The position numbers and the translations under genes were made by a program. This document shows, piece by piece, positions 11,327-58,633 of a stretch of 64,000 bases of DNA; within the stretch, counting starts at the first letter, position 1, and the number at the start of each line of letters is the position of its first letter. The notes under the pieces are model-generated. The model was not told the DNA's origin, ran no database searches, and saw only the letters and a list, made by a program, of their open reading frames with translations. This DNA is from a virus: the IMG/VR virus record IMGVR_UViG_3300045284_000330, positions 1-64,000 of that record, one strand, 5' to 3'.

Positions 11327-11336
11327 CGCCGCTGCG

Positions 11337-12446
11337 ATGGCTTCCATCCAAGTCCTGCACGGCGATTGCCTCGCGCTGCTGCCGACGCTCGCGGAAACCT
11401 CGATCGACGCTATCATCACCGATCCGCCATACGGAATTGGATTTATGGGCCGGAACTGGGATCACGGCGTTCCCGGCGTTCCCTTTTGGGCGGCGATGCT
11501 GCGTGTCCTCAAGCCCGGCGGCCACCTCGTCGCCTTCGGCGGCGCGCGCACCTATCACCGCTTGGCATGCGCGATCGAGGACGCCGGCTTCGAGATACGC
11601 GACCAGATCATGTGGCTGTACGGTAGCGGCTTTCCCAAAAGTCTCGACGTGGGAAAGGCGACGACGTTTCACGGCCCGACCTTATCCGGCACGCCTCTTG
11701 ATGACGGCAAATGGCAAGGCTTTGGCACAGCGCTAAAGCCCGCCCACGAGCCGATCGTCCTCGCACGAAAGCCGCTCATCGGCACGGTGGCGGCCAATGT
11801 GCTGGCGCATGGCGTCGGGGCACTTAATGTAGATGCTTGTCGCGTCGAAAGTGACGGAACGCACGGAAGCGCTGATAGTGTCGGGAAAGGTGCAGGGCGC
11901 AGCACCGCAAATGTTAATGGTAATGCTTATGGGAATGGTTTGGGTGGCATTGTGGCTGCCCCACACCCTGCAGGCCGCTGGCCCGCCAACGTCATCCACG
12001 ACGGCAGCGACGAGGTGATGGGGGCGTTTCCTGACTCGGCCCCATCGTCTGGACGGCCTCGCAACAACAAAGCAAGCATCGGCTATGGCGGCTCCGATGT
12101 TGATTTCCTAACGGTGGGATATGAAGATGCTGGAGGCTCTGCCGCCCGGTTCTTTTATTCGAGCAAGGCCGACAAGGACGATCGCCTTTCCTCCAGGCAT
12201 CCCACGGTGAAGCCAGTCGACCTGATGGCGTACCTCTGCCGCTTGGTGTGTCCTCCCGGCGGCCTAATTTTGGACCCCTTTGCCGGCAGCGGCTCGACCG
12301 GCATGGCCTGCATGCGGGAAGGCTTCGACGCCATCCTGATCGAGCGTGAGGCGGAATATGTCGCGGACATCAGGCGCAAGATCGCGCATGTGTCGGGAGA
12401 GGATACGCCGCTGTTCACGAGGACCGCCGCATGCCCGCCGCGCTGA
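11337..12446 (+). CDS. DNA adenine/cytosine-N4 methyltransferase (N6_N4_Mtase)
   Basis: A 369-residue protein. Motif IV (TDPPYGIGF) lies near the N-terminus; H-P-T-x-K-P and then motif I (LDPFAGSGSTG) lie near the C-terminus. This is the beta-class order shared with CcrM. A variable target-recognition region of about 180 residues lies between. The DPPY form fits N6-adenine methylation. The gene probably protects phage DNA from restriction or alters host methylation. No partner endonuclease is adjacent. The downstream gene is a GcrA-like remnant. Confidence 0.85.
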   Translation: MASIQVLHGDCLALLPTLAETSIDAIITDPPYGIGFMGRNWDHGVPGVPFWAAMLRVLKPGGHLVAFGGARTYHRLACAIEDAGFEIRDQIMWLYGSGFPKSLDVGKATTFHGPTLSGTPLDDGKWQGFGTALKPAHEPIVLARKPLIGTVAANVLAHGVGALNVDACRVESDGTHGSADSVGKGAGRSTANVNGNAYGNGLGGIVAAPHPAGRWPANVIHDGSDEVMGAFPDSAPSSGRPRNNKASIGYGGSDVDFLTVGYEDAGGSAARFFYSSKADKDDRLSSRHPTVKPVDLMAYLCRLVCPPGGLILDPFAGSGSTGMACMREGFDAILIEREAEYVADIRRKIAHVSGEDTPLFTRTAACPPR

Positions 12447-12689
12447 TCACCTGGAACGACGACCTGGTGGCCGATCTGCGCAGCAGATTCGCCGCCGAAG
12501 ATGCCGCGCGGCAGCAGGCCCTGCTGCCTCATCAACATCACCAACGAGACCTGCCGGTGGCCGCTGTGGGACGAAGCCCCCGATGCGCCGCGGCTGTTCT
12601 GCGGAGCGGCCGACGCCAAGCTTCATGAGGGCATGCCGTATTGCGCCGAGCATGCGAGGCTCGCGTTCGGGCATGCACCACACCGATAA
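12431..12689 (+). pseudogene. GcrA-like regulator, split by a frameshift
   Basis: The frame from ATG 12431 encodes a GcrA-type N-terminus (ITWNDDLVADLRSRFAAE). The frame open from 12501 to 12689 encodes a GcrA-type C-terminus: C-R-W-P-L-W near its start, then L-F-C-G-A and MPYCAEHARLAF. Neither frame alone has both parts, and together they are far shorter than GcrA (about 170 residues). It could be a decayed gene, a sequencing error, or a real short protein starting at 12501, though no good ribosome site is seen there. In alphaproteobacteria GcrA works with sigma70 at methylated GANTC promoters. Confidence 0.55.
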
Positions 12690-12776
12690 TGCCAATGCAT
12701 GCAATTCATTTCGACGCGATCCATTGCTAATCCAGGCCAAAAAATTGCTTTTCCGCGCCAGTCCACACACTCGGCG

Positions 12777-12816
12777 TTAAGCTCGGCTTGACGACGGGGC
12801 TGCGCCCGCCTAACAC
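12777..12816 (+). promoter_or_regulatory. Promoter with AAGC-N3-GCTT operator
   Basis: TTAAGC-TCG-GCTTGAC at 12777-12792 overlaps a -35 box TTGACG (12788-12793). A 17-bp spacer leads to TAACAC (12811-12816). It faces the secreted-protein genes starting at 12851. One of eight copies of this motif in the window. Confidence 0.6.
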
Positions 12817-12850
12817 CGCGGCATGGGGGGCTCAGCCAGGAAAGAGCCTC

Positions 12851-13159
12851 GTGAAAACTATCATTCTACTTTTGCTAGCCACCATCCCAGCATCCGCGGC
12901 CGGCGGCATCATTTATCCGCCGCCAAACCCAAAGGATCAGTCCTGCTTCGCCAAGTCCGTTCGCCAATTCCCATGGGCCTCCCAGAACGCGCAGCAGCGC
13001 AGGGCACAAGCTGATTGCGAAGCCGCGAGCGACGACATCAACACGCTGGATCACCTAATTCGCGATCTGCCTGCCGGGACATGCGCCAGCATCGGGCGCG
13101 CTGGTCAGGGATGGGCCCCCGGCGGCAACGGATACATCTCCGTCTGCAAGAAAGGATGA
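12851..13159 (+). CDS. Small secreted protein
   Basis: A 102-residue protein using GTG 12851 with AGGAAAG upstream. It begins with a clear signal peptide (VKTIILLLLATIPASAAGG), followed by a mature part with four cysteines that could form disulfides. First gene of a cassette of small exported or membrane proteins behind the operator-promoter at 12777. Likely a lysogenic conversion or exclusion gene; function unknown. Confidence 0.6.
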   Translation: MKTIILLLLATIPASAAGGIIYPPPNPKDQSCFAKSVRQFPWASQNAQQRRAQADCEAASDDINTLDHLIRDLPAGTCASIGRAGQGWAPGGNGYISVCKKG

Positions 13160-24914: not shown

Positions 24915-26198
24915 TCACTCCACTCGCCACACGATGATTTCTCGCGACAGCACGAGGCATTCCCTGTTGGCTTTCGCCCATTCGACCATTTGCGGGTTGC
25001 ACTGCTGGCTTTCGTAAGGGACCGAATAGCGCATTGCGACCGGCAGCTTGATCCTGCGAAGCATGTCGCCGACGTGATCGGTGAACTGCCGCTCTGGCGC
25101 ATTCCACTGCGTGGGCTGGATGATCAGCGCGATGTGCGCGCCATCCGAGAGTTTTTTGCCAAACCCGGAAATGATTCCTGCGAGCGTTTCATTGAACTGC
25201 TCGAGCGGCATGTTGGCGAGGTCGGTAGAGTCCTCGCTGTACTTGCCTTTTGCCTGCCACCAATACGGCGGGTCGAGGTAGACGAGCTTGACGTCTTTCC
25301 ATTGCGGCGGCTTCGGCAGGCCATCGGTGAGATCGTGCTGGCGGATTTCCTTCTCGCGCTCGACGATCGGCTTGCGATCGGAAACCCAATAGCGACGAAA
25401 GCGCTTTCGGCACAGATCGATAGTCGACCCGCCTCCGGCGAACGGGTCCACCACCACATCAAGCGGGTTGGTGTAGAGGTAAAGCAGGTTGTCGAGCCAG
25501 CGCACCTCGCTGTTGCCGAAATGCGTCGATCCCTTGGTTTTCTCCTGCTGTTTCCAAACGTTGTAGATGGGCGGCTCGAAGTCGGTGGCGTGCTCAGCAT
25601 TCGCAAGATTAGATTTGTTCAGATTTGGCAAATCTGCCATTTCCGAACAAAGTCCACTAACGACAGCCTTTGCAACGTTCTCATTCTCGGCGATCTCTTC
25701 CACTGTCCGGCACGCCAGCCACGCTTCGAAGATGCGCTTGTTTCGCGCCTCCTTGGCGTCCTTATCCATGCGTGACAGCCAATCGCGCACGGTGCGCTCG
25801 GAAACCGACAAGATGTGTGCGAGGTGCGCCTTCTTGCCTTCGCGCTCCTTCTCCGGCGTCATGCCGTAAATCTTGCGCGCCATGTTGCGCTTGTCGTCCT
25901 GCGATAACTGCAAGCCGTGCGCCGCATTGCGGTCGATCGCCAACTCCAGAAGCTCGGCGTCGCTCTCGGTTGGCGTGATCTTTGCCTTGATGGTCGCCGC
26001 TTCCATCTTTCGATGTGCGGTCCAGCGATGCCAACCGTCGATCAGCTCATTACGCTGATTGACCTCGATCGGCGGCAGCACGTCGAGGTCCTCGGCATAT
26101 TTCTGAACGGTGACGGCGCTGGTTTCAATGCGCGGATAGAGGTCCTCGCGGAAAACAATGTCGGCCACCGCAATTTCAACGACCGCAAGCATGTCCAT
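24915..26198 (-). CDS. ParB-domain / DNA methyltransferase fusion
   Basis: A 427-residue protein. The N-terminal ParB/Srx-like domain has R-N-E-L-I-D-G-W-H-R-W-T-A-H (about 48-61), followed by a KorB-type helix-turn-helix (HILSVSERTVRDWLSRM). The C-terminal domain has motif I (VDPFAGGGSTIDL) before motif IV (YLDPPYWW), the gamma-class order of N6-adenine methyltransferases. Phage ParB-methyltransferase fusions of this layout are known; the ParB part may guide DNA binding. Part of the early minus operon. Confidence 0.82.
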   Translation of the reverse strand: MDMLAVVEIAVADIVFREDLYPRIETSAVTVQKYAEDLDVLPPIEVNQRNELIDGWHRWTAHRKMEAATIKAKITPTESDAELLELAIDRNAAHGLQLSQDDKRNMARKIYGMTPEKEREGKKAHLAHILSVSERTVRDWLSRMDKDAKEARNKRIFEAWLACRTVEEIAENENVAKAVVSGLCSEMADLPNLNKSNLANAEHATDFEPPIYNVWKQQEKTKGSTHFGNSEVRWLDNLLYLYTNPLDVVVDPFAGGGSTIDLCRKRFRRYWVSDRKPIVEREKEIRQHDLTDGLPKPPQWKDVKLVYLDPPYWWQAKGKYSEDSTDLANMPLEQFNETLAGIISGFGKKLSDGAHIALIIQPTQWNAPERQFTDHVGDMLRRIKLPVAMRYSVPYESQQCNPQMVEWAKANRECLVLSREIIVWRVE

Positions 26199-30945: not shown

Positions 30946-30967
30946 CGTGAAAACGGAGCAAACAGCT

Positions 30968-31960
30968 ATGAACGAGATGCCAAATCAGGTCGCCGTCTTT
31001 CGACACGAATTGCAAAACATGGAACCGCAGTTCGCCGCGGCACTGCCGCCGCATATCACCGTTGCGCGTTTTGCGCGCGTTTTACAAACCGCCGTCCAGA
31101 ACAATCCAGACCTGCTCTACAAATGTGACCGTCGGTCGCTCTGGAACTCCGCGATGAAGTGCGCCCAGGATGGGTTGGTCGCCGACAATCGTGAGGCCGC
31201 CATCGTTGTTTATGGTGACCAAGCTCAATATCTCCCGATGATTGCTGGACTCCGCAAGAAGGCGCGCAACTCTGGCGAGATCGCGACGTGGGATGCGCAG
31301 GTCGTTCACGCCAAGGACGCATTCGAATTCGAGCTTGGCGACGAACCGTTTATCCGGCACCGGCCTTGCCTCGACGAAGACCCGGGGCCGGTGAGGGCGG
31401 CATATTCGGTCGCGGTGCTCAAGTCCGGCGAAAAATCTCGTGAGGTCATGTCGGTGACCGCCATCGAAAAGGTGCGCGCGCGCTCACGCGCTAAGAAGGG
31501 CGGGCCGTGGTTTACCGACTATGAAGAGATGTGTCGGAAGACCGTGGCTCGCCGGCATTCCAAAGTCCTACCAACTTCGGTAGATATCGACACTCTCCTG
31601 CAGCGCGATGACGACCTCTATGATCTTAAGACCGGTGCCGGCGATGGCGGCATCGCGCCAGGCGAAAAGCCGCGGACGCTCGCCGGCCGCCTCGACGCCT
31701 TGGCGGGGCCAGTCCGAGAAACCGTCCTGGCATCTCGGGAACACCGCCAGGACGGCGACGAAGGGGCGGGCGCGGGGGACGCAGACGGGGCGCCCGCCCC
31801 CGCACAGAATTCCGCTGTGGACCTTCAGCCGCCTGCATCGGCGCAGGCCGCAGGCTCGGCGAGCCCGGCGAAGACGCCCGCGGCCGACACCACCGAGGCG
31901 CGCGCATACCGGCCGGGAACCGGTGGCGCGCGCCTGTCTGATCTCGATGTGGGGGAATGA
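30968..31960 (+). CDS. RecT-family single-strand annealing protein
   Basis: A 330-residue protein; ATG 30968 has ACGGAG upstream, better than GTG 30947. Typical RecT order: P-P-H-I-T-V-A-R-F-A-R-V, L-W-N-S-A-M-K-C-A-Q-D-G-L-V-A-D, Q-Y-L-P-M-I-A-G-L-R-K-K-A, then W-F-T-D-Y-E-E-M-C-R-K-T-V-A-R-R. The C-terminal 100 residues are Ala/Pro-rich and disordered. Works with the YqaJ exonuclease in strand annealing or genome circularisation. Confidence 0.88.
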   Translation: MNEMPNQVAVFRHELQNMEPQFAAALPPHITVARFARVLQTAVQNNPDLLYKCDRRSLWNSAMKCAQDGLVADNREAAIVVYGDQAQYLPMIAGLRKKARNSGEIATWDAQVVHAKDAFEFELGDEPFIRHRPCLDEDPGPVRAAYSVAVLKSGEKSREVMSVTAIEKVRARSRAKKGGPWFTDYEEMCRKTVARRHSKVLPTSVDIDTLLQRDDDLYDLKTGAGDGGIAPGEKPRTLAGRLDALAGPVRETVLASREHRQDGDEGAGAGDADGAPAPAQNSAVDLQPPASAQAAGSASPAKTPAADTTEARAYRPGTGGARLSDLDVGE

Positions 31961-36169: not shown

Positions 36170-36514
36170 ATGATTGAGCGCAAGCGGGAACGCGGCACCA
36201 TCAGCGACGCCATGGGCATTCTCGGGATCGACAAGGCCCGGACCATCGAGGCCATGGCGGCCCGCGGGATCATTCCCAGCGCGGCCAAGATCGGCCGGCG
36301 GTGGACGTTCAATCTCGCCGCGCTTCGAACATTTGTGAAGGATCAGGAGCGCGAGGCATGGCAAAGAAGCGAAAGGCACCCAAGGGCTGTTATTGGGTCG
36401 GGGATGTCCTCTACGGGCGCACGCGGATCAAGGGCAAGCTGGAACGGATCGCACTCGGAACAGATAATCCGGCGGTGGCGGTCGGGCGCCGGAAAGCATG
36501 GCACGAAAGTCTGA
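36170..36514 (+). CDS. Excisionase-like MerR-type HTH protein
   Basis: A frame of 114 residues. Residues 10-60 (T-I-S-D-A-M-G-I-L-G-I-D-K, I-P-S-A-A-K-I-G-R-R-W-T-F) are an HTH_17/excisionase-type winged helix. The C-terminal 50 codons overlap the integrase gene and have poor composition, so the active domain is the first half. Its place directly before int supports a role as recombination directionality factor. Confidence 0.6.
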   Translation: MIERKRERGTISDAMGILGIDKARTIEAMAARGIIPSAAKIGRRWTFNLAALRTFVKDQEREAWQRSERHPRAVIGSGMSSTGARGSRASWNGSHSEQIIRRWRSGAGKHGTKV

Positions 36515-37425
36515 TCGCCGGCCGGGTATGGGGCGACGATGAAAAGACGTTCCCCCAGGTCGTCGAAGTGTGGGAAGCGTCCTACATCGCCGGCGACCGC
36601 TCGGCCGGCCCAAACACCGTCAAGCGCTACAAAGTGAGCCTCGGGCAGATCATGCCCATCATCGGCGACCGGCCGGTCAAGGCGGTCGACGCCAAGCTGA
36701 TCCGCGAGGTCGTCGACGCCCGCCGCGCCGGCGGGGCGACCAACGCGACGCTGAAGCGCGACCTCGTCGCTCTGTCGAGCGTCATGAACTGCGCCGTCGC
36801 CCGCGAGTGGATCGACGCCAATCCGGTGCTGCCCCGGATGAAGGCGATCGTCGAGAAGCGCGAGCCGATCAATCTGCCGCGGCCAGCCGATGTCGAGCGG
36901 GTGATCGAGCGGGTGCCCGGTATGCTCAAGCAGCTCGTGCGGGCCGCAATCGTCACCGGCTGCCGTCTCAATGAGCTGGTGACGGCCAAGCGCGCCGACA
37001 TCGATCACGAGCGGGCGACCCTGACCGTGCTGGGCAAGCGCAACAAGCGGCGCACGATCGAGCTGGCGCCGATGGGCGGGTATGAGTTGATCCGGTCGCT
37101 GCCGGTCTTCGCCGGGTCGCCCTATGTTTTCTGGCACCACGACGGCAAACCTTATCGAAACCTGTCGGCCCGGTTTGCTTGGCTCGTGAAGGAAACCGGC
37201 GAGCTGGCGGCTGCCGAGGGGGTCGACTTTGCCCCGTTCTGTTTCCACGATCTGCGGCACCTGCACGCGACCCACTACCTGCATCAGGGGATCGACAATC
37301 TGTGGGTGCTCTCGAAGCGCCTCGGGCATACCTCGACCAAGGTGACCGAGCGCTATTTGCACGAGCTGAGCGAGGTCGAGGCAGCCGCGCAAATCCGCAA
37401 GGTCCAGCGGAGGAAGGCCGGATGA
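36358..37425 (+). CDS. Tyrosine integrase
   Basis: A 355-residue protein from ATG 36358. The N-terminal arm-binding domain (M-A-K-K-R-K-A-P-K-G-C-Y-W-V) is followed by a SAM-like core-binding domain. The catalytic residues can all be seen: Arg203 (T-G-C-R-L-N-E), His297 and Arg300 (H-D-L-R-H), His324 (L-G-H-T-S) and the tyrosine nucleophile Tyr333 (E-R-Y-L-H). attP lies 300 bp downstream. Confidence 0.9.
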   Translation: MAKKRKAPKGCYWVGDVLYGRTRIKGKLERIALGTDNPAVAVGRRKAWHESLIAGRVWGDDEKTFPQVVEVWEASYIAGDRSAGPNTVKRYKVSLGQIMPIIGDRPVKAVDAKLIREVVDARRAGGATNATLKRDLVALSSVMNCAVAREWIDANPVLPRMKAIVEKREPINLPRPADVERVIERVPGMLKQLVRAAIVTGCRLNELVTAKRADIDHERATLTVLGKRNKRRTIELAPMGGYELIRSLPVFAGSPYVFWHHDGKPYRNLSARFAWLVKETGELAAAEGVDFAPFCFHDLRHLHATHYLHQGIDNLWVLSKRLGHTSTKVTERYLHELSEVEAAAQIRKVQRRKAG

Positions 37426-43730: not shown

Positions 43731-45194
43731 TCATACTCCACGGCAGGCGAAAGCGTCCTTCGCATACTTTCCGGCAGGCGAGAACGAACAGCGGCAGTTC
43801 GAGTGCGCGGGGATCAGGCCCTCGGCCTCGTCGAGGGTGTACGGCCCGTCAGCCGCGATGTCCAAGCATTCATCACAAACGTCATCGTCCTCCTGCGTGA
43901 CGACCTCGATCAGGTTGCCGCCCAGCGTGCTTTCGAGCCGCTTCTCTGCCGCCTCGACCCGCGCGATTGTCTCCTGGGACGGCGTCTCCTTCCGGCTGAC
44001 TTGCGCTGTGGGGCCTGGCTGCATCCGCTCCGCCGGCCGCGTCATCGCTGCATACTGGCGGTAGAGATCCTCGCGCTTGTACTGCTGCGCGGCCCGCAGC
44101 GCCTCGCCCTCGGCCTGCCGTCGCGCCACATATTCAGCGGTGCCACGCTTTAGCCCCTGGGCAAACTCAGACTCGGCCCGGACCAATCGTTCGCTCTCTT
44201 GCTGCAGTTCGTGCTCGATCTGGCGATACGCCTTCTCGCGGCCCTGCCGCTTGGACAGCGTGGCGAACCGCTCCCGCCAGCCCTTCTGTGCCTGGGAGAT
44301 CAGCGCTTGCAACGGCACCCGGACAGCCGATGCGCCCGCAACTTCCTCGGCCTCACCTTCCATCGCGCCGACTATTCCCAGACTGCGCCACGACGCCAGT
44401 TCCTCGGGTGTCGCCTGCCTGGTGCCGCTGCGCCATTGCCTGATCCGCCGCGCCTCTGGATAGCCAACCAGGGATTCGATCTCGTTCTGGGTCATATCGC
44501 CGATCGGTATCGCATCGGCCAGCCGACGCCGCCGCACGCGCTCCGGAATGGTCCCAACTTGCGTCACGCCGGCGCTGCGGAATGCGCTCAGCGTCGACGT
44601 CGCGTGCGTCCTGGCGATCACATACTCGGCCATCGCCCGGGTGCGATGACGCATCGCCCGGATCACGCCGGCCAGGGCGTTCGCCATTTTGGTCGGCGAG
44701 TGGCTCGCCATCATCGCCTGCGTGGCCAGCCGAACGAGTTGCTGCTGTGCCGCGGCCACGATGCCGCGCAATTCGCTTGTCGCGAGGCTCTCCATGGCGG
44801 CGATCCGCGCCGGGTCGACCCGGCCGCCGGGGACGAGCCCATCGGCGCGTTGCTGGGCTCGCTGGGCGGCCTTTCGAACGTGGGGTCTCAGCCATACCCC
44901 ACCGGCGAAAACCTTCTGGGCGAGCTCGCCTTCCAGCCATGCGGCAAACCCCTCCCCTTTGTCGGCATGCGGGAGCCGCCCGATGCCACGCAGGCCAACG
45001 AGGTCGTGCTCGATCAGTGCTTGTCGGAGAGTGCGGCCGAATGTCTGCCAGCGTCGATCGCCCTCGGCCTTCATCCGTATACGGAGGCCGGACGTGCCCG
45101 TGGGATCACGGCGCCCGGCCTGTGCATCCGCGACCGCCGACCGGGGACTGGGGGGGGGTGGTCGGTGACCGCAAAGGGAATGTTCCGCATACAT
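43731..45194 (-). CDS. MuF-like head morphogenesis protein with large insert
   Basis: A 487-residue frame. Start uncertain; ATG 45194 is kept because D-P-T-G-T-S-G-L-R before Met41 belongs to the family. The N-terminal helical part and A-R-T-H-A-T-S-T-L-S match the MuF/SPP1 gp7 domain, as does the end (D-D-V-C-D-E-C-L-D-I, I-P-A-H-S-N-C-R-C-S-F). In between lie about 200 extra residues rich in Arg, Glu and Gln, probably coiled coil (R-E-K-A-Y-R-Q-I-E-H-E-L-Q-Q). Minor head protein next to the portal. Confidence 0.72.
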   Translation of the reverse strand: MYAEHSLCGHRPPPPSPRSAVADAQAGRRDPTGTSGLRIRMKAEGDRRWQTFGRTLRQALIEHDLVGLRGIGRLPHADKGEGFAAWLEGELAQKVFAGGVWLRPHVRKAAQRAQQRADGLVPGGRVDPARIAAMESLATSELRGIVAAAQQQLVRLATQAMMASHSPTKMANALAGVIRAMRHRTRAMAEYVIARTHATSTLSAFRSAGVTQVGTIPERVRRRRLADAIPIGDMTQNEIESLVGYPEARRIRQWRSGTRQATPEELASWRSLGIVGAMEGEAEEVAGASAVRVPLQALISQAQKGWRERFATLSKRQGREKAYRQIEHELQQESERLVRAESEFAQGLKRGTAEYVARRQAEGEALRAAQQYKREDLYRQYAAMTRPAERMQPGPTAQVSRKETPSQETIARVEAAEKRLESTLGGNLIEVVTQEDDDVCDECLDIAADGPYTLDEAEGLIPAHSNCRCSFSPAGKYAKDAFACRGV

Positions 45195-45237: not shown

Positions 45238-45459
45238 TCAGGTCCGCGGGGTGCCATCAGGAAGCCTGGTGAGGGCGACATTGACCCACATGGCGTTGGC
45301 ACGGTGCGCCCGCAGGATGAATGTTTTGTCCGGGCCTTCCGGCAGGAGCCGGTCGAGCGCGTCTGCGTATACCTTAGCCGCCGTCCGCAGTTCGGCCATC
45401 GTGGCGATTTGTGCATCCGTAGGTTTCAGATATTCAAACGTCGATTCGTGCAGGCTCAT
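45238..45459 (-). CDS. Acb2/Tad1-type hairpin protein (anti-CBASS candidate)
   Basis: A 73-residue protein, AGGAGG upstream. It has a helical hairpin: A-T-M-A-E-L-R-T-A-A-K-V-Y-A-D-A-L-D-R-L-L, then I-L-R-A-H-R-A-N-A-M-W-V-N-V-A-L-T-R-L and a short D-G-T-P-R-T end. This is the pattern of Acb2/Tad1-hairpin proteins, which bind and hide cyclic nucleotide signals of CBASS (and, for Tad1, Thoeris) defence. It lies between MuF and portal in the late operon. Confidence 0.62.
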   Translation of the reverse strand: MSLHESTFEYLKPTDAQIATMAELRTAAKVYADALDRLLPEGPDKTFILRAHRANAMWVNVALTRLPDGTPRT

Positions 45460-45471
45460 GCTGGCCTCCTG

Positions 45472-45768
45472 TCAACCGCGGTCGCGCTCGGCGATCGCCC
45501 ACGCATTCAAAATCGCTGCCATCTCGTGGGCGGTCTGCGGCGGCTTGTAGCCCTCATGGCTGACAATCTCGGTCGCCAGCTTCATCGCGTCGTGGAACGT
45601 CAATGCCGTCATGGCTCTGGCGACGCCCTGCAGCGGCGCATCAGCCCGCCGCGACGTGTAGCCTGGATAACCGACGGCACCCACCTGGCCCAGGCCGCGC
45701 GGTGGCCCATTGATGGGCGTGCTGGCGGGAACTGGAATGTCGAAATCAGAATCAGAATCATAGCTCAT
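45472..45768 (-). CDS. Hypothetical protein
   Basis: A 98-residue protein; ATG 45768 with GGAG upstream. N-terminus acidic (MSYDSDSDFDIPVPA), C-terminal helix (DAMKLATEIVSHEGYKPPQT). Between portal and Acb2-like genes. Function unknown. Confidence 0.5.
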   Translation of the reverse strand: MSYDSDSDFDIPVPASTPINGPPRGLGQVGAVGYPGYTSRRADAPLQGVARAMTALTFHDAMKLATEIVSHEGYKPPQTAHEMAAILNAWAIAERDRG

Positions 45769-45784
45769 CACGGGCTCCATTCGG

Positions 45785-47338
45785 TTAACCGGTGGCCCCC
45801 ATTTCCTCGGGATTAGGACTGGGCGGCTCTTGCTTGTCATCCGGCGCCGGCGCCCCGCCGAATCCAATTGGCGCCGCTGGCATCTCCGGCTCCTCGGGCT
45901 CGGCGCCGTATTCGGCGATTGCAGTATCCAGACCAGGATAGGTGGCGTCTTCGACCAGCTGATTGACGACGCCCTCACGGAACGCGTCCTCGTTGATGAG
46001 GCCGATCGTCGAATAAATCTGCGTGGCCTGCGCCTTCTGGTACGCGATCGCCGCCTTCTCCGCCTCGCCCATCTGCCAAAGCGCATTCCATTCATAATGG
46101 ATGTCGGGGTCTGGCCGCCCGAACGCAGACCGCATCATCACCTGATCGAGCATCCCGAGTTTGGGCGCGACCTCGTTCTTCTGCATGTCGACGCAGGCGT
46201 CGTAGTAATTCCGCAGATCGTCCGGACCGCCCGCGGTGCTCCCGCCCTGCATCCCTCGCCCTTGGGCCTGGCCGAACAGGCGGCTCACCGGCATGTCCGC
46301 CGCGGCGGCGACGATGGTTGTGAATTCGTGCAGGATCATCGGCAGGCCACTGTAGTTCGTCTGTACCCGTTGCCATTCCTCCTCCTTGTCGAGGAGCAGC
46401 GCGCTGATGACGCTCTTGGTCTGCGCCGACAAGGTGAACCGCTCCAGCAGCTTGTTTTTGTAGCCGGGCGAGGTCAGGTTAAGCGCCATCTCCGGGATTT
46501 TAACGACGTCCAACTTGCCGTCATTCACGATTGCCGCAATCGACTGCAGGCTGCTCGTGAATCCCATCATCGTATCGACGACGGTCTGCAGAACGCTGTC
46601 GCCCCAGCCGCCTCCCATTGGGGCCAGCCGCCAATCTGGCAGTTCATTGCCTGCGTATTCGAGCACGCGGCTCGGATGAATCTGCGTCATGCCGATGCCG
46701 ATGGTCGGGATCGTCTGCAGCTGCTGCCCCTGCTGTCGTCCAAACGGGATAACGTTGCGGAACCCTCCCGCCTTCGGTGCCGCCGGCGGCGCAGGCGCAG
46801 GCGCCGTGGCGCCTGCCTCGCCCTCGAAGCCGAACATCGGCGTCGCCACCGTGTAATAGGCAGGCCGCGTGTAATAAGGGTCCATCACGTTGTAGATCCG
46901 CGGGCCCGCGTTCAGCTCATAGCGATTGAGCACCACAACGTATTTGAGGCAGCCCCGCCCGCACTTCTCCAGATTGAGCGGCTGACTCGGGTCATTGCCG
47001 TCATCCACGCCGACGATCAGCGCGGCTCCGCCATAAAGCCGCGCCCGGGTGATCCACTGCTTCACCTTGCGCTGCAGGTCCATCGTCTTTTCGATGGTCT
47101 CCAGCGCCTCGATCTGACTTTGCGACGCTTGCCACGCACGCCACTCGCGCGTCACATCCTCGGCCGGAGCATCGCAAATTTTTCGCGCCAGCCAGTCTCC
47201 GCGATACATATTCTCAAGCTGATTGCGATCGAGCAGAGTGAAGTCGTATTGAACGCTCCGGCTCGGATCGAGCCCAGGCGTGCCGAGGCCCGTCACGAAA
47301 TTTTTCAGCGTGTCGCGGACAGTTGTGTAGTAGCTCAT
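45785..47338 (-). CDS. Portal protein (DUF1073 / Phage_portal_3)
   Basis: A 517-residue protein: L-L-D-R-N-Q-L-E-N-M-Y-R-G-D-W-L-A-R-K, D-A-P-A-E-D-V-T-R-E-W, R-L-Y-G-G-A-A-L-I-V-G-V-D-D, I-H-P-S-R-V-L-E-Y, then V-S-R-L-F-G-Q-A-Q-G-R-G-M-Q-G. All are typical of DUF1073 portals. Some database entries name this family after Acb1, because certain members adjoin or fuse with it; that is not evidence for anti-CBASS activity here. Upstream of MuF as usual. Confidence 0.88.
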   Translation of the reverse strand: MSYYTTVRDTLKNFVTGLGTPGLDPSRSVQYDFTLLDRNQLENMYRGDWLARKICDAPAEDVTREWRAWQASQSQIEALETIEKTMDLQRKVKQWITRARLYGGAALIVGVDDGNDPSQPLNLEKCGRGCLKYVVVLNRYELNAGPRIYNVMDPYYTRPAYYTVATPMFGFEGEAGATAPAPAPPAAPKAGGFRNVIPFGRQQGQQLQTIPTIGIGMTQIHPSRVLEYAGNELPDWRLAPMGGGWGDSVLQTVVDTMMGFTSSLQSIAAIVNDGKLDVVKIPEMALNLTSPGYKNKLLERFTLSAQTKSVISALLLDKEEEWQRVQTNYSGLPMILHEFTTIVAAAADMPVSRLFGQAQGRGMQGGSTAGGPDDLRNYYDACVDMQKNEVAPKLGMLDQVMMRSAFGRPDPDIHYEWNALWQMGEAEKAAIAYQKAQATQIYSTIGLINEDAFREGVVNQLVEDATYPGLDTAIAEYGAEPEEPEMPAAPIGFGGAPAPDDKQEPPSPNPEEMGATG

Positions 47339-47616
47339 TGCTTCGTTCCCGCCGGCGCCATGGCGAGCCGGGCGCTCTCGATCTCCCGGGAATCCCGCTC
47401 CTCATCCAAAACGTCACGGCCCTGATGCAACGCGCACGCGTCGTCGCTTACCCCGACGATCGGCCGCACGAATTGGAAAGTGACCTTTCCCCCCGACATT
47501 GACACCTGCGTCGGTGTCGGCGGAGCGCCCCCGCACACTCGTCTGGTCAAATCCTGCGGCACGATCCGCGCGAAGCGGCACGTTCCGCAGCGCTTGATGT
47601 TCATGACCCCGACCAT
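47335..47616 (-). CDS. Cys-rich hypothetical protein
   Basis: A 93-residue protein starting MVGVMNIKRCGTCRFARIVP; its ATG overlaps the lysin stop (TGATG). C-G-T-C-R, V-C-G-G and a late D-A-C could bind metal. Between endolysin and portal; function unknown. Confidence 0.5.
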   Translation of the reverse strand: MVGVMNIKRCGTCRFARIVPQDLTRRVCGGAPPTPTQVSMSGGKVTFQFVRPIVGVSDDACALHQGRDVLDEERDSREIESARLAMAPAGTKQ

Positions 47617-49199
47617 CACGCCACCAAGCCCGTGTCCAGATACTTCTGGACCGCCGCGAACATCTCGTCGGCTTCCATTTTCAATTCCACTTCCTTCCGG
47701 ATTACGGGGCCATAATGGTTCGCGAGATTGCGAAGCGTCAGGCCGTGCGTCTCCACCGCAAAAGCCGGGCATTCCTTGCACAGCTTCTGAAACGCATAGC
47801 CCTGGCCGCTGCCGTAGCAGCCCCATTCGTCATCCGTGCAGGAAACCCCATCGTCGAAGACGCTGAGATAGCAGGTCGCCACGTTCCGCGGGTTTGAATA
47901 CTCCGCCATGAGATTGCTAAACGCTGGCTCGCTTGCGCTGTGGGCGTTCCATGACGTTTGAAACAGGCCCGCCTCCGCGGTGTCGCTCGACACATTGTCG
48001 GCCGACAGGTCCCGGCCCTCGCAGTGCCTTCCGCTCGACTCCCGCATCCCGCTGCCGAGCATCAAAGCATATAGGTGGCGCAAGGTAAGGGCCCCCGCGG
48101 CCTCGTTGCTCATTCCCAGCGCATCAAACTGGCTGCGGTAGATATTGAGCGCGTCCTTGTCCGATCCGGTCCGCGCCTTCGCCATTTCGACCGCCGCCTG
48201 GTGCCCAAGCTGAAGCTTGCGATAGGTCTGGGCAAACGCCAGCGCCATGCCTTGGGTGAACCCAGGCGGGGCAACCCCGCGGTCCTTCCAGGGATACTCC
48301 GCGATTTCGCTCTCATCGGCGATTACGCAAATCGCTTCGATGTCCCGTTCGTCCAGCGCGTGCGGCGGAGGCGGCAACGGCGGCTTGCCGTCGTACAAAG
48401 CCGCCCACGTCTGCTCGCCGCAAATGCCGTCGGCCGCAAGCCCGCGCGTTGCCTGGTACTGCGTAACGGCATCCTCGGTCCCGTTGCCGAAATCACCGTC
48501 TTCGTCGAGGTCCGGGTGCAGTTCGGTAAGGTTGAGCAGATGCTGCATATCATCCACGTCGTGGCCCTTGTCGCCGAGGGCGAGCACAGGGCGCTGGTCC
48601 AACGGCACCTCCAGCGGGTCCTCGACCCATGGCCGTTCGGGCGGCTTCTCGCCCGGCGCGTCCGGCACCGTCACGCCGCTGAGGGACTCCGCGATCGCTT
48701 TACAGATAGCGTCGAAGTGGGCGTTGTACTTGTTGCTGTCGTCTGTGCTGTCGCAGAAGCAGACCTCCAGGAGCACCGCTGGTTTGGCCGTATTGTTCAG
48801 GAAAAACAGGTTGTCGGTGTGCTTCTTGCCGCGGTCCTTGAAGCCGCCGGCCTTGGCTATCGCCGCCGAGATCGTCGCGGCATAGTCGGCCATACCGCTG
48901 CTCGTGTACCAGACTTCCGTGCCGTAGGCCCCCTCGGTGGCGTTGAAGTGAACCGAGACGTCCCGATCCCTGGTCTGCTCGTTGTGCCAGTTCACGATGG
49001 TGTTGAGGTTGGTGTTCTGGTCGTGGGAGGTGTTGTCGTGAAACGTCGCCGTCTTGATGCCGGCGCTTTTCAAGTGTTCCGCGACGCGGTCGACGACCCG
49101 TCGTGCTTCGTCGACCTCGTCCAGCTCCGGCGGCACTGGATTGCCGCACGCGCCCCGAATGTACTTTCCATGGCCAGAACTGATCGCGAAGCTTGGCAT
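47616..49199 (-). CDS. Multidomain endolysin (Amidase_3 + PG-binding + muramidase-like)
   Basis: A 527-residue protein. About 1-175: N-acetylmuramoyl-L-alanine amidase (Amidase_3): S-S-G-H-G-K-Y near the N-terminus, D-V-S-V-H-F-N-A-T and A-V-L-L-E-V-C-F-C-D carry the zinc His and Glu. About 205-275: PG_binding_1 (L-A-L-G-D-K-G-H-D-V-D-D-M-Q, then F-G-N-G-T-E-D-A-V). About 285-527: a large C-terminal domain with M-R-E-S-S-G-R and A-G-L-F-Q-T-S-W-N-A-H, suggesting a second, glycosidase-type activity. Two lytic domains in one enzyme is unusual but known. No signal peptide, so export by holin. Confidence 0.75.
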   Translation of the reverse strand: MPSFAISSGHGKYIRGACGNPVPPELDEVDEARRVVDRVAEHLKSAGIKTATFHDNTSHDQNTNLNTIVNWHNEQTRDRDVSVHFNATEGAYGTEVWYTSSGMADYAATISAAIAKAGGFKDRGKKHTDNLFFLNNTAKPAVLLEVCFCDSTDDSNKYNAHFDAICKAIAESLSGVTVPDAPGEKPPERPWVEDPLEVPLDQRPVLALGDKGHDVDDMQHLLNLTELHPDLDEDGDFGNGTEDAVTQYQATRGLAADGICGEQTWAALYDGKPPLPPPPHALDERDIEAICVIADESEIAEYPWKDRGVAPPGFTQGMALAFAQTYRKLQLGHQAAVEMAKARTGSDKDALNIYRSQFDALGMSNEAAGALTLRHLYALMLGSGMRESSGRHCEGRDLSADNVSSDTAEAGLFQTSWNAHSASEPAFSNLMAEYSNPRNVATCYLSVFDDGVSCTDDEWGCYGSGQGYAFQKLCKECPAFAVETHGLTLRNLANHYGPVIRKEVELKMEADEMFAAVQKYLDTGLVA

Positions 49200-49304
49200 A
49201 GCTTTGTCATCCGATTATCTGTGAATGCGGGCATCGCGACCTCCTTTCCAGGTTGCCTTGTCAAGCGGCGGTCAGGCGTTGCTGCGTCTGGCCGCCACGC
49301 ATTT

Positions 49305-49553
49305 TTAGCCGAAGCGCAGAGCGCCAAACTCCGCGCGGCCGAAGAAATGGACCATCGGCGCGCCGACCAAGAGCGAGACCACGCAGATAATGAACACCAC
49401 CAGCACAATCAGCAGATAGATGCGCTGGATGTTCCATGGAATCGGCCACTCGAAAATATTGGCCACCCAGACGATGATTGCGCCAATCAGAACCAGAACC
49501 GCGGCAACAAGCACGCAATTGAGCACCCCGATCAGGATTCCGGTGACGGACAT
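49305..49553 (-). CDS. Holin-like membrane protein
   Basis: An 82-residue protein with a strong AAAGGAGGTG site. Two membrane helices (LNCVLVAAVLVLIGAIIVWV, I-Y-L-L-I-V-L-V-V-F-I-I-C-V-V-S-L-L-V) and a short polar end. Size, topology and place directly before the endolysin suggest a holin. Confidence 0.6.
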   Translation of the reverse strand: MSVTGILIGVLNCVLVAAVLVLIGAIIVWVANIFEWPIPWNIQRIYLLIVLVVFIICVVSLLVGAPMVHFFGRAEFGALRFG

Positions 49554-49565
49554 GGTGCACCTCCT

Positions 49566-49700
49566 TTAATTGCGCTGCTCGGGCGGCACCACGACCGTGG
49601 GCGGCACGCTCGGATGCTCGGGCACCACCTGCGGCTGAGGTTGCGGCGGCGGTGGTTTTGGCACCTGCGGCGGTGGAGGTTTCGGCTTATCCGCATTCAT
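49566..49700 (-). CDS. Small Pro-rich protein
   Basis: A 44-residue protein starting MNADKPKPPPPQVPKPPPPQ; proline about 40 percent. Between the Acb2-like and holin-like genes. Perhaps a periplasm-spanning linker; function unknown. Confidence 0.45.
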   Translation of the reverse strand: MNADKPKPPPPQVPKPPPPQPQPQVVPEHPSVPPTVVVPPEQRN

Positions 49701-49713
49701 GGCTTTGTTCCTG

Positions 49714-49911
49714 TTAAGCGGTTGCGGCTTTAACTGCCCACATGGCGGCGTCTTCGTAGTGTGTTTGTGCGAGCGAGGCTAAACGGGCGTCTTTCGATTT
49801 CAGTGTCTCGCATAAATCGATGAGTTCCGCCGACTTCTGCTTGATCTGGTCGACGACGCTATCGGCGCTCGGATTGAATTTCGTTCGCACGCGATCCTCA
49901 CCAACACTCAT
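49714..49911 (-). CDS. Second Acb2/Tad1-type hairpin protein (anti-CBASS candidate)
   Basis: A 65-residue protein, GGAG upstream. After R-T-K-F-N-P-S-A-D-S come two helices: V-V-D-Q-I-K-Q-K-S-A-E-L-I-D-L-C-E-T-L and A-R-L-A-S-L-A-Q-T-H-Y-E-D-A-A-M-W-A-V-K-A. The E-x-A-x-M-W-A-V-K-A end is the hallmark of the DUF7681 (Acb2/Tad1 hairpin) family. Different from the first copy at 45238, so not a simple duplication. Close to lysis genes. Confidence 0.65.
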   Translation of the reverse strand: MSVGEDRVRTKFNPSADSVVDQIKQKSAELIDLCETLKSKDARLASLAQTHYEDAAMWAVKAATA

Positions 49912-51380: not shown

Positions 51381-51809
51381 TTATCCTCCTGATGCTTTCA
51401 GCATTTCACGACCCTTGTCGAAAAGGGCCTTCGGTAGTTTTCCACTCTTTACTGCCTCGCGGCGCCCCGCGCGGTCCGACTTGCGAAACAATTCACGGCA
51501 ATCGAACCGCTGGCATACATGTGGGGCGCGCCCGTGAATACTGCATCCGTTGGCTGTAAGATAGATACAATCGCCGTTGGGCCGCCGTTTTAGCGCGCGG
51601 CCAAGGCGCGTACCGTCGCGCTTCGTAATCCACGCCCAGTCATATTGCTCGTACTCCTCCTGCGCCAAGGGAACAATCAGAGTTCGGCAGCACAGCGTGC
51701 ACAAGCCGCACGGCACGTCGGATCGCCTGTCGTCCTTATCGACGAGATGTGTCGGCCGTAAATCAGGCAGACGCGCGACGCTCGGAATGTCCTGCTTCAT
51801 TTCTGCCAT
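51381..51809 (-). CDS. YkgJ-family zinc/iron-chelating-domain protein
   Basis: A 142-residue protein: C-G-L-C-T-L-C-C-R, then G-C-S-I-H-G-R-A-P-H-V-C-Q-R-F-D-C. Same cysteine pattern as 41806 but shorter. ATG overlaps the fibre gene stop. Such genes sometimes neighbour collagen-like fibres in phages and might modify them; this is inference. Confidence 0.65.
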   Translation of the reverse strand: MAEMKQDIPSVARLPDLRPTHLVDKDDRRSDVPCGLCTLCCRTLIVPLAQEEYEQYDWAWITKRDGTRLGRALKRRPNGDCIYLTANGCSIHGRAPHVCQRFDCRELFRKSDRAGRREAVKSGKLPKALFDKGREMLKASGG

Positions 51810-54024: not shown

Positions 54025-55554
54025 TCAGGACACCCAGCTCATGTCAGACGGGTATCGATATCTGCTCGCGATCTTGTTGAACGCGCCGGAACTCGCATCA
54101 ATCTGGTCCTTGTATTTTCCGACCGGGAAATGTTCGGCCTCTTCGAGATAATTTTTCACCCATACACCCACGACCAGCCGCACATTGCCGCCCTGCCACT
54201 GCGCAGCGAACGGCTCGGCGCGCATCTCCTTTGCGCCGCGCACCCGATCGGCCTCGACGCGGAAGCCGGCGAGATTTCTGACCGTGGATTCCGCGCTCTC
54301 TTTGCCCCCGCTACCCGGCTCCTGCTCAACCCAGACCTTGGTCAGGAAATACTTTCTGCGATCCATCTCGGCGGTCTGCTTGATGATCCGCTCGCGGTCT
54401 AGCGCCGACCATTGCCCGCGCCTCACGTCAGCCACGACAAACGTGTCGTCGCGCATCCGCAGCATCAGGACGCCGGCGGTGTAAGCTCCGCCGCCGGCGG
54501 TGCCGCTCTTGTCCCAGTAGCGCACCGCGGCGACGACGCTCGCAGATGGCGGCGCCTCCGATATGATCGAGGCCATGTGGATCGGGAACATGTCGCCGCC
54601 GACGACAATGGGCGCCTGCTGGTAGACGCTCTGCCAGCCGGCCAATGTCATCATGGCGCGCTGCTGCTCGAGAAATTCCGCCGACTTGAGTTCCGGGAAA
54701 AGCGGTTCGCCCACCTTGCGCACAAACGGCCCGATCGGGCGCCCCACCTCATCAATGGCCGTATGTGTCTCCTCCTCTTCGGCCAGCGCCGCATAGCGGC
54801 ATACGCGCACATCCTTATGGCGCTCGATCAGCCGGCCCGCAGGATCGTCTAGATGCCATCGAGTCATCACGAGCAGCAGCGCGGCGCCGTCGGAGAAACG
54901 CGTCATGAAATCGTCGGTCATCCAATTCCATGTCTTGTCGCGGGTGAGCTTCGAGCTCGCCTCGGCACGGCCTTTGATGGGATCATCAATGACGCCCAAG
55001 TCCAGTCCCTCGCCTGTCACCGCACCTGCGATCGTGGTGTTGCGAAAAGACCCGCGCTCCAGGCCCGTTCCGTGAAACTCGATCATTTCGCTATTGGAGC
55101 GACGAACAGACGGGTTGACCGCCTGGTGCCCGAATATCTTGGCGTGCTTGGGATCGGCGAGAATGCGCTGCAGTCGAAGGTTCGCGCGAATGCCGAGCCG
55201 CTCGCTGAAAGACGCGAAGATGATTTTCAGTTGTGGGTCCGGCCCGCTCAAGCCGATGATCCACGAGAGGAAGTCTACGACTTGGGTGCTTTTCCCCAAT
55301 TGTGGAGGCGACTGCAGCAGGAGTTTTGGCCGGCGCCCGGCGCTATAGTCCAGCCAAAAGCGGTGCAATTCGAGCGCAACCTCGCGCTGCCACCATCCCA
55401 TGATCATGCGCGGATTGAGATAGCGGCGATACGCCCAGAAGGATTCGCGCGACTCGCGCTGGGCCTGCTGCTCCATGAGCCACAGGTCCTCCTCGGTGTA
55501 GGGGCGCGACGCTGGGACGTTGATGTTCACGAACATCACCACATCGGCGCGCAT
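54025..55554 (-). CDS. Terminase large subunit
   Basis: A 509-residue protein. ATPase: [10 protein letters not shown] (Walker A), L-D-L-G-V-I-D-D-P (Walker B), [12 protein letters not shown] (coupling motif). Nuclease: [20 protein letters not shown], and a late D-Q-I-D-A. Met7 at 55536 is an alternative start. This terminase is separated from the portal by fibre and lysis genes, an unusual order. Confidence 0.9.
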
Positions 55555-55591: not shown

Positions 55592-58500
55592 TCACGCGCT
55601 GCGTAGGAAGGCTTCATCCGGCTTACCGAAAATCTCCGCCGTCCAGCCCGACATGCTGCGAAAATGCGGGGCAATCTCGTTCTTGTATCTGATCCAACTC
55701 GGGCGGAATGCAATCGCCGATTGCCACTTTTGCCCGCGGATATAGTGCGCGCCGTCCACGGTCATCGGCACCCCGACACCGATCACCTTCTGATGCCCCT
55801 CCCGCCGCGCCACCTGAACGGCAAACAGCCCCGAGCTGCCGCCCCAGTCCAGCCCGGTATCGTGGGTGATCTCTGGGGCTTTGCGGTGCGCCCAGACCTG
55901 TTCCGGCTCCGGCAGCCCAGCCTTGCGCCGGCCGTTCAGCCAGGCGATGGGCCCCACAAGCTTGTCGGGATGCAGCGTGACCGCGACGCATTCATCAGGG
56001 AAAGTCTTGATCTGGTCGTTTATGGCAAACACGCGGAAGGGCAGATCGCCGATCAACTTCCTGGCCGCCTCCCAATCCTGCCTCCAGCACATGGCGCCGC
56101 CGAGCACGACCGCCACCGTCGCCGTGGGTGCATGGGGTGGTGGCGCACTCGGCAAACTCGGCAAACTGGACAAATCACCGGCTTTGCGCGCCTCGAACGT
56201 GCATGACTCGATCTGGTTGAAGTGATCCCCAATGACCCGGCCGTGCCCCTCGACGCCACGGAGCGCCGGGTCCTCCGATAGCCCAGACTCGCATGCCAGT
56301 ACATCGTCGAAGCCCGCGAAGTAGAGCGTGTCGCGCAGGAGCTGCGCGTTCCATGCGCATTCATGGCCATGAGCGTAGATGATCGCACTCATGGCGCCAC
56401 GCTTGTTGGGCCCGAGCTTCTGCCACTTGGTCGTAAAGCGGTGGTAGTCAGCGTCATCACATGCGGCGATCTGCTCCAGACTCGGCACAGTCACCCGAAG
56501 AACCCCGCCCGGCGCCAGGACCCTGTGGGCCTCCTGGAAGAAGCCGATCGCCGCTTTGTAAGGAACGTGCTCCACGCAATGCTCGATATTGACGTGACTC
56601 ACGCTGCCGTCCGGCCACGGCAACTTTTTGGTGATATCCACGTCAGCGTCGCGGTTCTCCCAACCAGCGAGCTTGTTGGTACCGCAGCCAAGATTTAGTT
56701 TGATGAGTATCGAGGCGCGCTCTTGCACCAGCTCATTGGGCTTCATGCGTTCCACGGCAAGCGCGGCCTCGACGAATTTTCTATACACACCTTGCTGCGC
56801 ACTGTCATGTTGGTGCGTCACCCAGTCTAGATCGAGATCGAGAATGTTGTCCTTGGTAATCTGGTTTTTGTCGGCCCGCTGCGCCTTCCACTGCATGATC
56901 TTCAGCCGGCATCCGTCCTTGGCCAGGATCTGCTGCCGAATGTAGCGCTCCGGTGTCGGCGCGACCTTCCGGTTCGGCCAATCATAGCGTTGAACGAAAT
57001 CGCTGCGCCGAAGGTAATCCGTCGAAAAGAACATGAGCCCGGTCTCAACCCAGAGCTTTTCATGCTCCTTGTGTTTCATCCCCTTCACATCGGTGGTTGC
57101 GCAATCGGCCTTCTCCTGCTGCATCCACCTGATGATGTCCCCCACGCAGAGCCGGAACAAGCTGTCGCCCTCTATATGCGCGACGTGCTCGTAACCCAGC
57201 TCGCAGGCGATCTCTAATCCCTTGCAAAAGGCCCGGCCCCAGCCGTCACGCCCCTCCGTCACGCCCTTGCGGCTGAGGTGGCCGATGTTGTCCGGAAAAT
57301 TGAAGACCATCCGGCGGTGTCGCTTGCCGTCATAAGGCGTCCAGTCCTCGAACTTCTTGATTGGCGACTGGCTGTCGACGGCGAGGAAATCGCAATCTCG
57401 TTCATTTAACGAGAAATGCAGCCGCTTCCACAGGTCCGTGAGATTGTCACGATCCGGGCTGTCCACATAGAACGTTCCGAACAACAGGGTGCTGCGCCTG
57501 GCCGCGAACGCCGTCACCGCTGCCAGCGCCTTCGGCACATCGATCGCCTTGTCGCAGCGGTGCTTGTTGCTGTGACAGTCGCATGGATTGAGAACGTCGA
57601 TCGGGAGCGTGGGGGCGAGGTGCGCGCCGACCCGCTGGGTCGTCCGATAGCTCTCGCGGCCGCCGTACACCACGATCAGCGGCGTCCCCACGGCCTGCGC
57701 CAGGACCGGCGCAAAGCCAGCGTTGCAGTAGACGAGGTCAGCTTCGGAAAACAGCGCCGCCATTTCCTCGAATGCCAGCTCCCCGTTGTGTAGCTTCAGG
57801 TCGGCCTCCTGCTCGGGCCCCTCGATCCACTCCTCGCCACGGCGCAGATCGGCGATGCTCACGACGTAGAACGAGTCCCGGATCGACCGAAAGATGGCGT
57901 CATAGGCCGCGGGGTCTGGATTGCGTGACCGGCCATCCCATTCCCGGCGCACCACGATCGGCCGGTGCACCATGAGCCGCTTGCCGCCCATATCGATCCG
58001 GCTCAGTCGATCGCGGGTCGATTGTCGCCATTCCGGCTTGATCGGCAGGCTGAAGTCAGGCCGCTCCGGCATTTGCAGACCGACGCATCCGAACATCGCC
58101 TCGAGGATCGAGCCGTGCTGATCGACAAGCGTCTTTGGATAGCCGATGCGTGCGACCCTCGCCGACGGCGGCGCCGCCGTAAACTTGGCCTGTTCGAATA
58201 GCCCCCGCTCCCGCTCAATGGTCTTTGCCTGCGCATGCAGCGAGGTGGGCCGCATCACCAGCTTGAGACCTTTGGCGACGAGGTCGTGATAAATCTGAAA
58301 GTGGCAGGTATGGAGCCAGACATCATAATCGCGCATCAGCACCCGCATCACCGCCCGCTGATGCAGATTGTCGCCGATACCGAAATGCCCGGTCACCGAG
58401 ATGCATGGCCTTGCCTGCTCTGGCGTCACTTTTGGAGGGAGCGGCTGCGGATGGGCGTGACGCTCGAACGTCGCTTCCTTCACCACGAGGTCGTTGCGCG

Positions 58501-58633
58501 CCAACAGCCGATCGACCGTGCCCTGATCGAGGTCGGCATATTTCATCGCGCCGGGAGCGAGATTGATCTCCCGATTGCGCGAGTCATAAAAAATGCGCGC
58601 CGCGCCAGCCGTGTTTTGCACAGCATAGATCAT
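55592..58633 (-). CDS. Multidomain glycosyltransferase / methyltransferase protein
   Basis: A 1013-residue protein with four parts. About 75-390: GT-B-type glycosyltransferase like the heptosyltransferase (GT9) family (G-H-F-G-I-G-D-N-L-H, then D-L-V-Y-C-N-A-G-F-A-P-V-L-A-Q-A-V-G). About 395-640: a second, GT-A-like domain with H-I-E-G-D-S-L-F and F-S-T-D-Y. About 650-830: methyltransferase (LNLGCGTNKLAGWENRDADV, V-L-A-P-G-G-V-L-R-V-T-V). About 855-1013: a Rossmann-like domain (V-V-L-G-G-A-M-C-W, S-S-G-L-F-A-V-Q-V). Together they look like a glycan-building enzyme, for the virion fibre or host surface. Domain edges are estimates. Confidence 0.72.
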   Translation of the reverse strand: MIYAVQNTAGAARIFYDSRNREINLAPGAMKYADLDQGTVDRLLARNDLVVKEATFERHAHPQPLPPKVTPEQARPCISVTGHFGIGDNLHQRAVMRVLMRDYDVWLHTCHFQIYHDLVAKGLKLVMRPTSLHAQAKTIERERGLFEQAKFTAAPPSARVARIGYPKTLVDQHGSILEAMFGCVGLQMPERPDFSLPIKPEWRQSTRDRLSRIDMGGKRLMVHRPIVVRREWDGRSRNPDPAAYDAIFRSIRDSFYVVSIADLRRGEEWIEGPEQEADLKLHNGELAFEEMAALFSEADLVYCNAGFAPVLAQAVGTPLIVVYGGRESYRTTQRVGAHLAPTLPIDVLNPCDCHSNKHRCDKAIDVPKALAAVTAFAARRSTLLFGTFYVDSPDRDNLTDLWKRLHFSLNERDCDFLAVDSQSPIKKFEDWTPYDGKRHRRMVFNFPDNIGHLSRKGVTEGRDGWGRAFCKGLEIACELGYEHVAHIEGDSLFRLCVGDIIRWMQQEKADCATTDVKGMKHKEHEKLWVETGLMFFSTDYLRRSDFVQRYDWPNRKVAPTPERYIRQQILAKDGCRLKIMQWKAQRADKNQITKDNILDLDLDWVTHQHDSAQQGVYRKFVEAALAVERMKPNELVQERASILIKLNLGCGTNKLAGWENRDADVDITKKLPWPDGSVSHVNIEHCVEHVPYKAAIGFFQEAHRVLAPGGVLRVTVPSLEQIAACDDADYHRFTTKWQKLGPNKRGAMSAIIYAHGHECAWNAQLLRDTLYFAGFDDVLACESGLSEDPALRGVEGHGRVIGDHFNQIESCTFEARKAGDLSSLPSLPSAPPPHAPTATVAVVLGGAMCWRQDWEAARKLIGDLPFRVFAINDQIKTFPDECVAVTLHPDKLVGPIAWLNGRRKAGLPEPEQVWAHRKAPEITHDTGLDWGGSSGLFAVQVARREGHQKVIGVGVPMTVDGAHYIRGQKWQSAIAFRPSWIRYKNEIAPHFRSMSGWTAEIFGKPDEAFLRSA

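Follow-up and report, generated by a model that had tools for sequence, protein, structure and literature searches.

We analysed bases 1-64000 of the soil virus record IMGVR_UViG_3300045284_000330 (74,156 bases in total), hereafter called the window, and found two small genes, A and B, in one run of late genes, whose products both belong to the family of the Acb2 proteins but to two different branches of it. We consider it likely, with a probability of roughly 60%, that A and B are both Acb2-type sponges of cyclic nucleotides whose pockets, and so the signals they trap, differ. This reading is based on the genes themselves, on the family to which their products belong and the fold predicted for them, on which residues are conserved, and on the mobility of the genes, the genomic slot that they share and how often they occur together. 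That members of this family act as sponges, and that phages may carry several anti-signalling proteins, is already known; the presence in one phage of an ordinary Acb2 relative together with a sister-branch member appears to be new.

Two branches of the PF24729 hairpin family

The two genes are as follows.
45238..45459, minus strand: protein A, 73 amino acids (aa), a hairpin protein of the Acb2 type from the phrog_1454 branch (PF24729, 23.7 bits; phrog_1454, E 4.6e-7)
49714..49911, minus strand: protein B, 65 aa, a hairpin protein of the Acb2 type from the phrog_717 branch (PF24729, 52.2 bits; phrog_717, E 1.2e-5)

An initial annotation, made from the letters alone, had placed two such open reading frames (ORFs) at 45238 and 49714, and both were found there at the lengths it gave. 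Each begins with ATG and is preceded at 5-6 nucleotides by a Shine-Dalgarno-like sequence (AGGAGG for A, AAGGAG for B), and the A-M-W motif pointed out in that annotation occupies residues 56-58 in both proteins. Nucleotide differences from relatives lie mostly at third codon positions, with 15/7/39 differences at positions 1/2/3 between A and its relative in contig L005 and 4/2/31 between B and that in L085. Further, a separate contig, L004, carries both genes with 99.2% DNA identity to the window over 7.8 kb and is, judged by this identity, the same phage; since it carries A and B independently, an assembly chimera was ruled out. Spurious ORFs or a chimeric contig, to which A's score below the Pfam cut-off might point, were thus of negligible probability, given the ribosome-binding sites, and were excluded by the third-position bias, by L004 as a second contig from this phage and by the 159 contigs that hold relatives.

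When searched against Pfam-A with hmmscan, both proteins matched PF24729 (Acb2_Tad1_hairpin; curated cut-off 27 bits) as the sole family at E<=10, B clearly (E 7e-14) and A under the cut-off (E 6e-5), and no further PF24729 match at E<=10 turned up anywhere in the 74,156 bases of the record. None of 14 control genomes matched this profile at E<=0.01. Relatives were collected from IMG/VR, where 80 of 93 were kept for A and 80 of 91 for B, together 159 contigs besides the window, and PF24729 was matched at E<=0.01 in 158 of them, as well as by 47 of the 49 members of the aligned A family and by all 55 of the aligned B family. The curated cut-off was exceeded by the A-type protein in 48/80 contigs, a count read from the result rows that omits two further records passing through their B gene only, and by the B-type protein in each of the 79 contigs that entered the search as B-type. 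As a family, A therefore groups by sequence within PF24729, and the profile check proposed in the initial annotation came out clearly positive for B, and for A at the family level while the single protein stayed sub-threshold. One second weak PF24729 match in the record of L008 (G004, 13.4 bits) was dropped as spurious, as it is a coil-plus-hydrophobic ORF, and a profile search of genome contigs with the A family returned only 2 loci.

The PHROGs comparison separated the two proteins. B falls in phrog_717, which is also matched by T4 Vs.4 (2.3e-32) and PaP2 gp26 (9.8e-33), and these are named as, or grouped with, proven Acb2 proteins in the literature (PMC10419184, PMC11722364, PMC12657230). 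A matched phrog_1454 and phrog_31113 (3.6e-6), both of which are families of Myrna gp211, while B gave with phrog_1454 a weak end match (E 0.06). As the initial annotation had remarked, the two proteins are not close copies: A and B did not match each other in BLASTP (E 7.4) or in a profile-profile comparison by hhalign (probability 1.2%), which rules out a recent duplication of one gene, and among the ORFs of the relative contigs none was matched by the family hidden Markov models (HMMs) of both A and B. Judged from these comparisons, A and B represent separate branches within a single Pfam family, B being an ordinary Acb2 relative and A a member of a sister branch (phrog_1454) that carries no name.

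The closest relatives of A in named phages are the phrog_1454-type proteins of Mycobacterium, Gordonia, Paenibacillus and Lactococcus phages, with 33-35% identity in tblastn (E 2e-3). One of them, Myrna gp211, matches PF24729 at 47 bits and, unlike A, is much extended at its C-terminus (165 aa). Their records label them hypothetical proteins or phosphomannomutase, the latter for instance in the Paenibacillus phages Vegas (H117) and Xenia (H122), and this label is probably a naming error. Other collections added little: PADLOC gave nothing for A or B; in NCBIfam, A, B and Vs.4 were without a match and PaP2 gp26 had no more than a weak, unrelated one; and phmmer of A and B, as well as the A profile, found nothing relevant in the PDB, where the best match of the B profile was Vs.4 at an E of 0.012 that alone is not significant.

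Ligand-site residues and predicted fold

According to PMC12657230, the Y8A mutant of Vs.4 is binding-deficient and, by a figure legend there, the T68M mutant has lowered affinity. As a MAFFT alignment of A, B, Vs.4 and PaP2 was unstable in its middle, the equivalent residues were assigned through the Pfam start and end columns and through ungapped spacing. T4 Y8, PaP2 Y11 and A Y10 share one Pfam column, and B F12 immediately precedes the first aligned residue of B; the equivalence to T68 was set by ungapped spacing from the Trp, a residue that PaP2 lacks in the Trp column. In PaP2-type proteins, Y11 and K26 are ligand residues.

Counted over the distinct sequences having the needed anchors (66 of 68 for A, 64 of 64 for B), the position of Vs.4 Y8 holds Tyr in 64/66 A and Phe in 63/64 B sequences. 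A basic residue follows on the next helix, namely Arg in 64/66 A sequences, at the distance of 15 residues also seen in Vs.4 and PaP2, and Lys in 62/64 B sequences, 12 residues on. The position of Vs.4 T68 is Arg in 65/66 A and Thr in 62/64 B sequences, and three residues past the Trp there is Lys in 64/64 B and Val or Ile in 65/66 A sequences. By this conservation, both families keep a ligand-site signature, an aromatic plus a basic residue, with a chemistry that differs between them and is strictly kept within each.

Compared with the known Acb2 proteins (T4 Vs.4; PaP2 gp26 or PaMx-type Acb2), A and B share PF24729 and a small, all-helical build, with no pairwise similarity detectable to PaP2. 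B differs from them in having Phe for Tyr, a loop that is shorter by three residues and a hairpin without insertion, and A in belonging to another PHROG and in having Arg for Thr at the T68 position. These pocket differences bear on two alternatives. In the first, both proteins would be sponges of the same ligand range, the second copy adding only capacity or having come by recombination without a new role. Pocket positions that differ, and that each family strictly keeps, speak against it, and we consider it unlikely; points in its favour come from the genomic context below. Alternatively, only B would be a sponge, and A a hairpin of the same ancestry turned to another task, such as binding a head or replication-module protein. 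A indeed carries Arg where Vs.4 and B have Thr, a position at which Thr to Met lowers the affinity of Vs.4, lacks the basic residue three after the Trp that B never lacks, and has a PHROG without a named function; but its aromatic and basic residues are retained and stand exactly 15 residues apart, as they do in Vs.4 and PaP2, which makes this alternative rather improbable.

AlphaFold2 models built with the family alignments placed helices at 5-8, 15-38 and 43-64 in A (mean predicted local distance difference test score, pLDDT, 95.1) and at 3-8, 19-37 and 42-64 in B (mean pLDDT 86.0). As modelled, both proteins share the layout that reviews describe for the Acb2 protomer (PMC12043709, PMC10419184), a short N-terminal helix followed by an antiparallel helical hairpin. 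Foldseek searches with the two models gave no match under E 1. VIA-align aligned A with the Vs.4 chain 7uq2_D (Z 6.3, root-mean-square deviation 3.9, 65 residues aligned) in a tie with unrelated helical chains, and for B listed Tad1 at Z 4.7 and no Acb2 chain.

Tad1 shares with A and B the C-terminal hairpin domain of PF24729, and in addition carries an N-terminal beta-sheet domain, as described in PMC12043709. In A and B only a short helix precedes the hairpin, so Tad1 proper was ruled out for both and a Tad1-like activity against Thoeris is not favoured. The initial assignment to the Acb2/Tad1-hairpin type is supported by profile, predicted architecture and residue conservation, and its extension to Thoeris-related signals lost ground.

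Genomic slots, mobility and co-occurrence

The source is a 74 kb record whose window holds genes for an integrase, RecT, a replicative helicase/primase-type protein, portal, terminase and endolysin, and the window phage is therefore most likely a temperate tailed phage. The genes used to describe the setting are listed below.
43731..45194, minus strand: minor head protein gene, immediately downstream of A (phrog_115, E 9e-8)
45785..47338, minus strand: portal protein gene, upstream of A (phrog_146, E 8.6e-105)
47616..49199, minus strand: endolysin gene with amidase_3 and peptidoglycan-binding domains, downstream of B (PF01520, E 5.7e-24; phrog_435)
49305..49553, minus strand: 82-aa hydrophobic ORF between B and the endolysin gene, possibly a holin by its sequence (no family match over cut-off)
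51381-51809, minus strand: CxxCxxCC putative metal-chelating domain protein (PF03692), between the tail fibre gene and B
54025..55554, minus strand: large terminase subunit gene, upstream end of the run that holds A and B (phrog_38, E 1.4e-66)
36301-37425, plus strand: integrase gene, by which the phage looks temperate
30947-31960, plus strand: RecT-type annealing protein gene, likewise

The late setting proposed initially was borne out, with B upstream of the endolysin gene and A between the portal and minor head genes. The compact minus-strand run reads terminase, tail fibre, CxxCxxCC protein, B, 82-aa ORF, endolysin, portal, a short ORF, A and minor head; the gap between the ORF that ends at 45472 and the start of A is 12 bases, and 43 bases separate the end of A from the minor head ORF. 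A promoter and terminator scan gave no more than was found in shuffled sequences. A relative of the window phage, L113, has B at the equivalent position as the single PF24729 match of its record, and no PF24729 match between portal and minor head. It therefore seems that A was either gained separately by the lineage of the window phage or lost from L113. L113 also has a match to the PF03692-type protein gene at the equivalent place.

DNA comparison of 24 kb (40001-64000) with the relative contigs found that the DNA common to the window and most matching A contigs lies at A only, and that common to the window and most matching B contigs at B only, with the neighbour genes of the window missing from nearly all of them. 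Such gene-sized islands of similarity in unrelated backbones indicate that the A and B genes are mobile. A group of other phages has A or B beside an SSB gene, in the stretch that runs from the exonuclease/Sak4 annealing protein genes to a DNA polymerase gene. Based on marker functions assigned by PHROGs on cluster representatives, both upstream and downstream replication-module markers were present in 15 A-only and 9 B-only contigs, some of them near copies. That A and B can fill the same replication-module interval argues for equivalent roles of the two genes.

This shared interval bears on each of the alternatives. It favours a common ligand range, as do the two A-type genes of L060 (at 631 and 3010, about 2.2 kb apart; an ORF at 1037, between the two, matches weakly) and L113, where B is retained at the same place without A, so that A is dispensable. 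It speaks against B being the only sponge, as A and B replace each other there. Finally, the many contigs with A or B between exonuclease/Sak4 and DNA polymerase genes might mean that both families are replication or recombination accessories, partners of Sak4, SSB or polymerase, whose likeness to Acb2 is one of ancestry or fold only. We regard this as very improbable, because in the window phage neither gene is near replication genes, their neighbours being portal, minor head and endolysin genes, because the neighbours vary widely between contigs, and because B shares the PHROG of proven Acb2 proteins.

Family HMMs found A and B together in 5 of the 159 contigs (L004, L020, L028, L029 and L120) and PF24729 in 4, the A-like gene of L120 being matched by phrog_1454 and not by PF24729; as the relative contigs are fragments, these counts are lower bounds. 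None of 74 longer records searched whole with PF24729 held both. In L020 (3275-4250) and L028 (163-1310), the gene order is A, SSB, B within the replication module, and their B-type proteins are divergent, with 40-42% identity to the B of the window. Either type alone is widespread among phages; by context and sequence we judge that the pair is uncommon but recurrent, having arisen about four separate times. No account of two divergent Acb2-type members in one phage was found in the literature covered, which left out most subscription papers, including two primary Acb2 papers.

Several other features were noted. In Gordonia phage ScarletRaider, an A-branch hairpin match at 12876-13082 (H140) overlaps gene 23 and the portal gene 22, and an A-branch gene by the portal thus also occurs in another phage group. 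Downstream of the B-type gene of L155, a 769-aa ORF (10540-12849, plus strand) reads by eye like a large terminase with an intein. The window holds a ParB-like domain fused to a DNA methyltransferase-like C-terminal part (24915-26198, minus strand), a DNA methyltransferase gene (11337-12446, plus strand; phrog_67) and, beside the terminase gene, a 1013-aa protein (55592-58633, minus strand) that combines phrog_6804, a family without known function, with a methyltransferase-like stretch. No Tad2 was found, a search of all 74,156 bases of the record with PF11195 giving 0 matches at E<=1; the stretch 64001-74156 was covered by the PF24729, PF11195 and phrog_1454 searches only.

A probable pair of sponges with different pockets

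According to the explanation that we favour, A and B would each fold into a short N-terminal helix and two antiparallel helices and assemble into a hexamer, which would trap the cyclic oligonucleotide alarm signals made by host enzymes like those of the cyclic oligonucleotide-based antiphage signalling system (CBASS), so that effectors would not be switched on. B would be an ordinary Acb2 relative, and A a member of the sister branch with a remodelled pocket. The phage would most likely keep both because the pockets, and hence the signals trapped, differ; it is plausible that A and B cover different signals, since each family strictly keeps its own residues at pocket positions where the two differ.

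Weighing against this explanation are the score of A alone below the Pfam cut-off, and phrog_1454, which has no functional name in PHROGs and no tested member that we found in the literature. The structure searches with the predicted models cannot separate the A and B hairpins from other helical hairpins, and the usual place of both families beside Sak4, SSB and polymerase genes also fits a replication accessory.

Stacked anti-signalling proteins are known from T4 (Acb1 and Acb2) and SPO1 (Tad2 and Acb4), as described in PMC11722364 and PMC12043709. Like these phages, the window phage would have several counter-signalling proteins in one genome; the T4 and SPO1 pairs combine unrelated folds, whereas that of the window phage combines two divergent members of one hairpin family. 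The two genes also stand with late genes in the window phage, while relatives of both are often found in early replication modules. As CBASS escape has been linked to the major capsid gene (PMC10419184), making sponges together with head proteins could be useful to the phage.

A bolder proposal, which we put forward tentatively and hold to be somewhat doubtful, is that the A branch is a sponge class for a ligand that the Acb2 branch refuses, with A and B as interchangeable cartridges at one early-module slot and phages with both covering two signals. If true, it predicts a matching second signal among the hosts of two-sponge phages. Panoptes-type systems, which detect sponges, may respond in different ways to two sponges whose ligands differ. 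The A branch, widespread and without a name, is a pool for which simple binding tests could reveal the ligands. If A and B are both sponges with different pockets, phages would widen the range of signals they absorb by stacking or swapping members of one tiny protein family.

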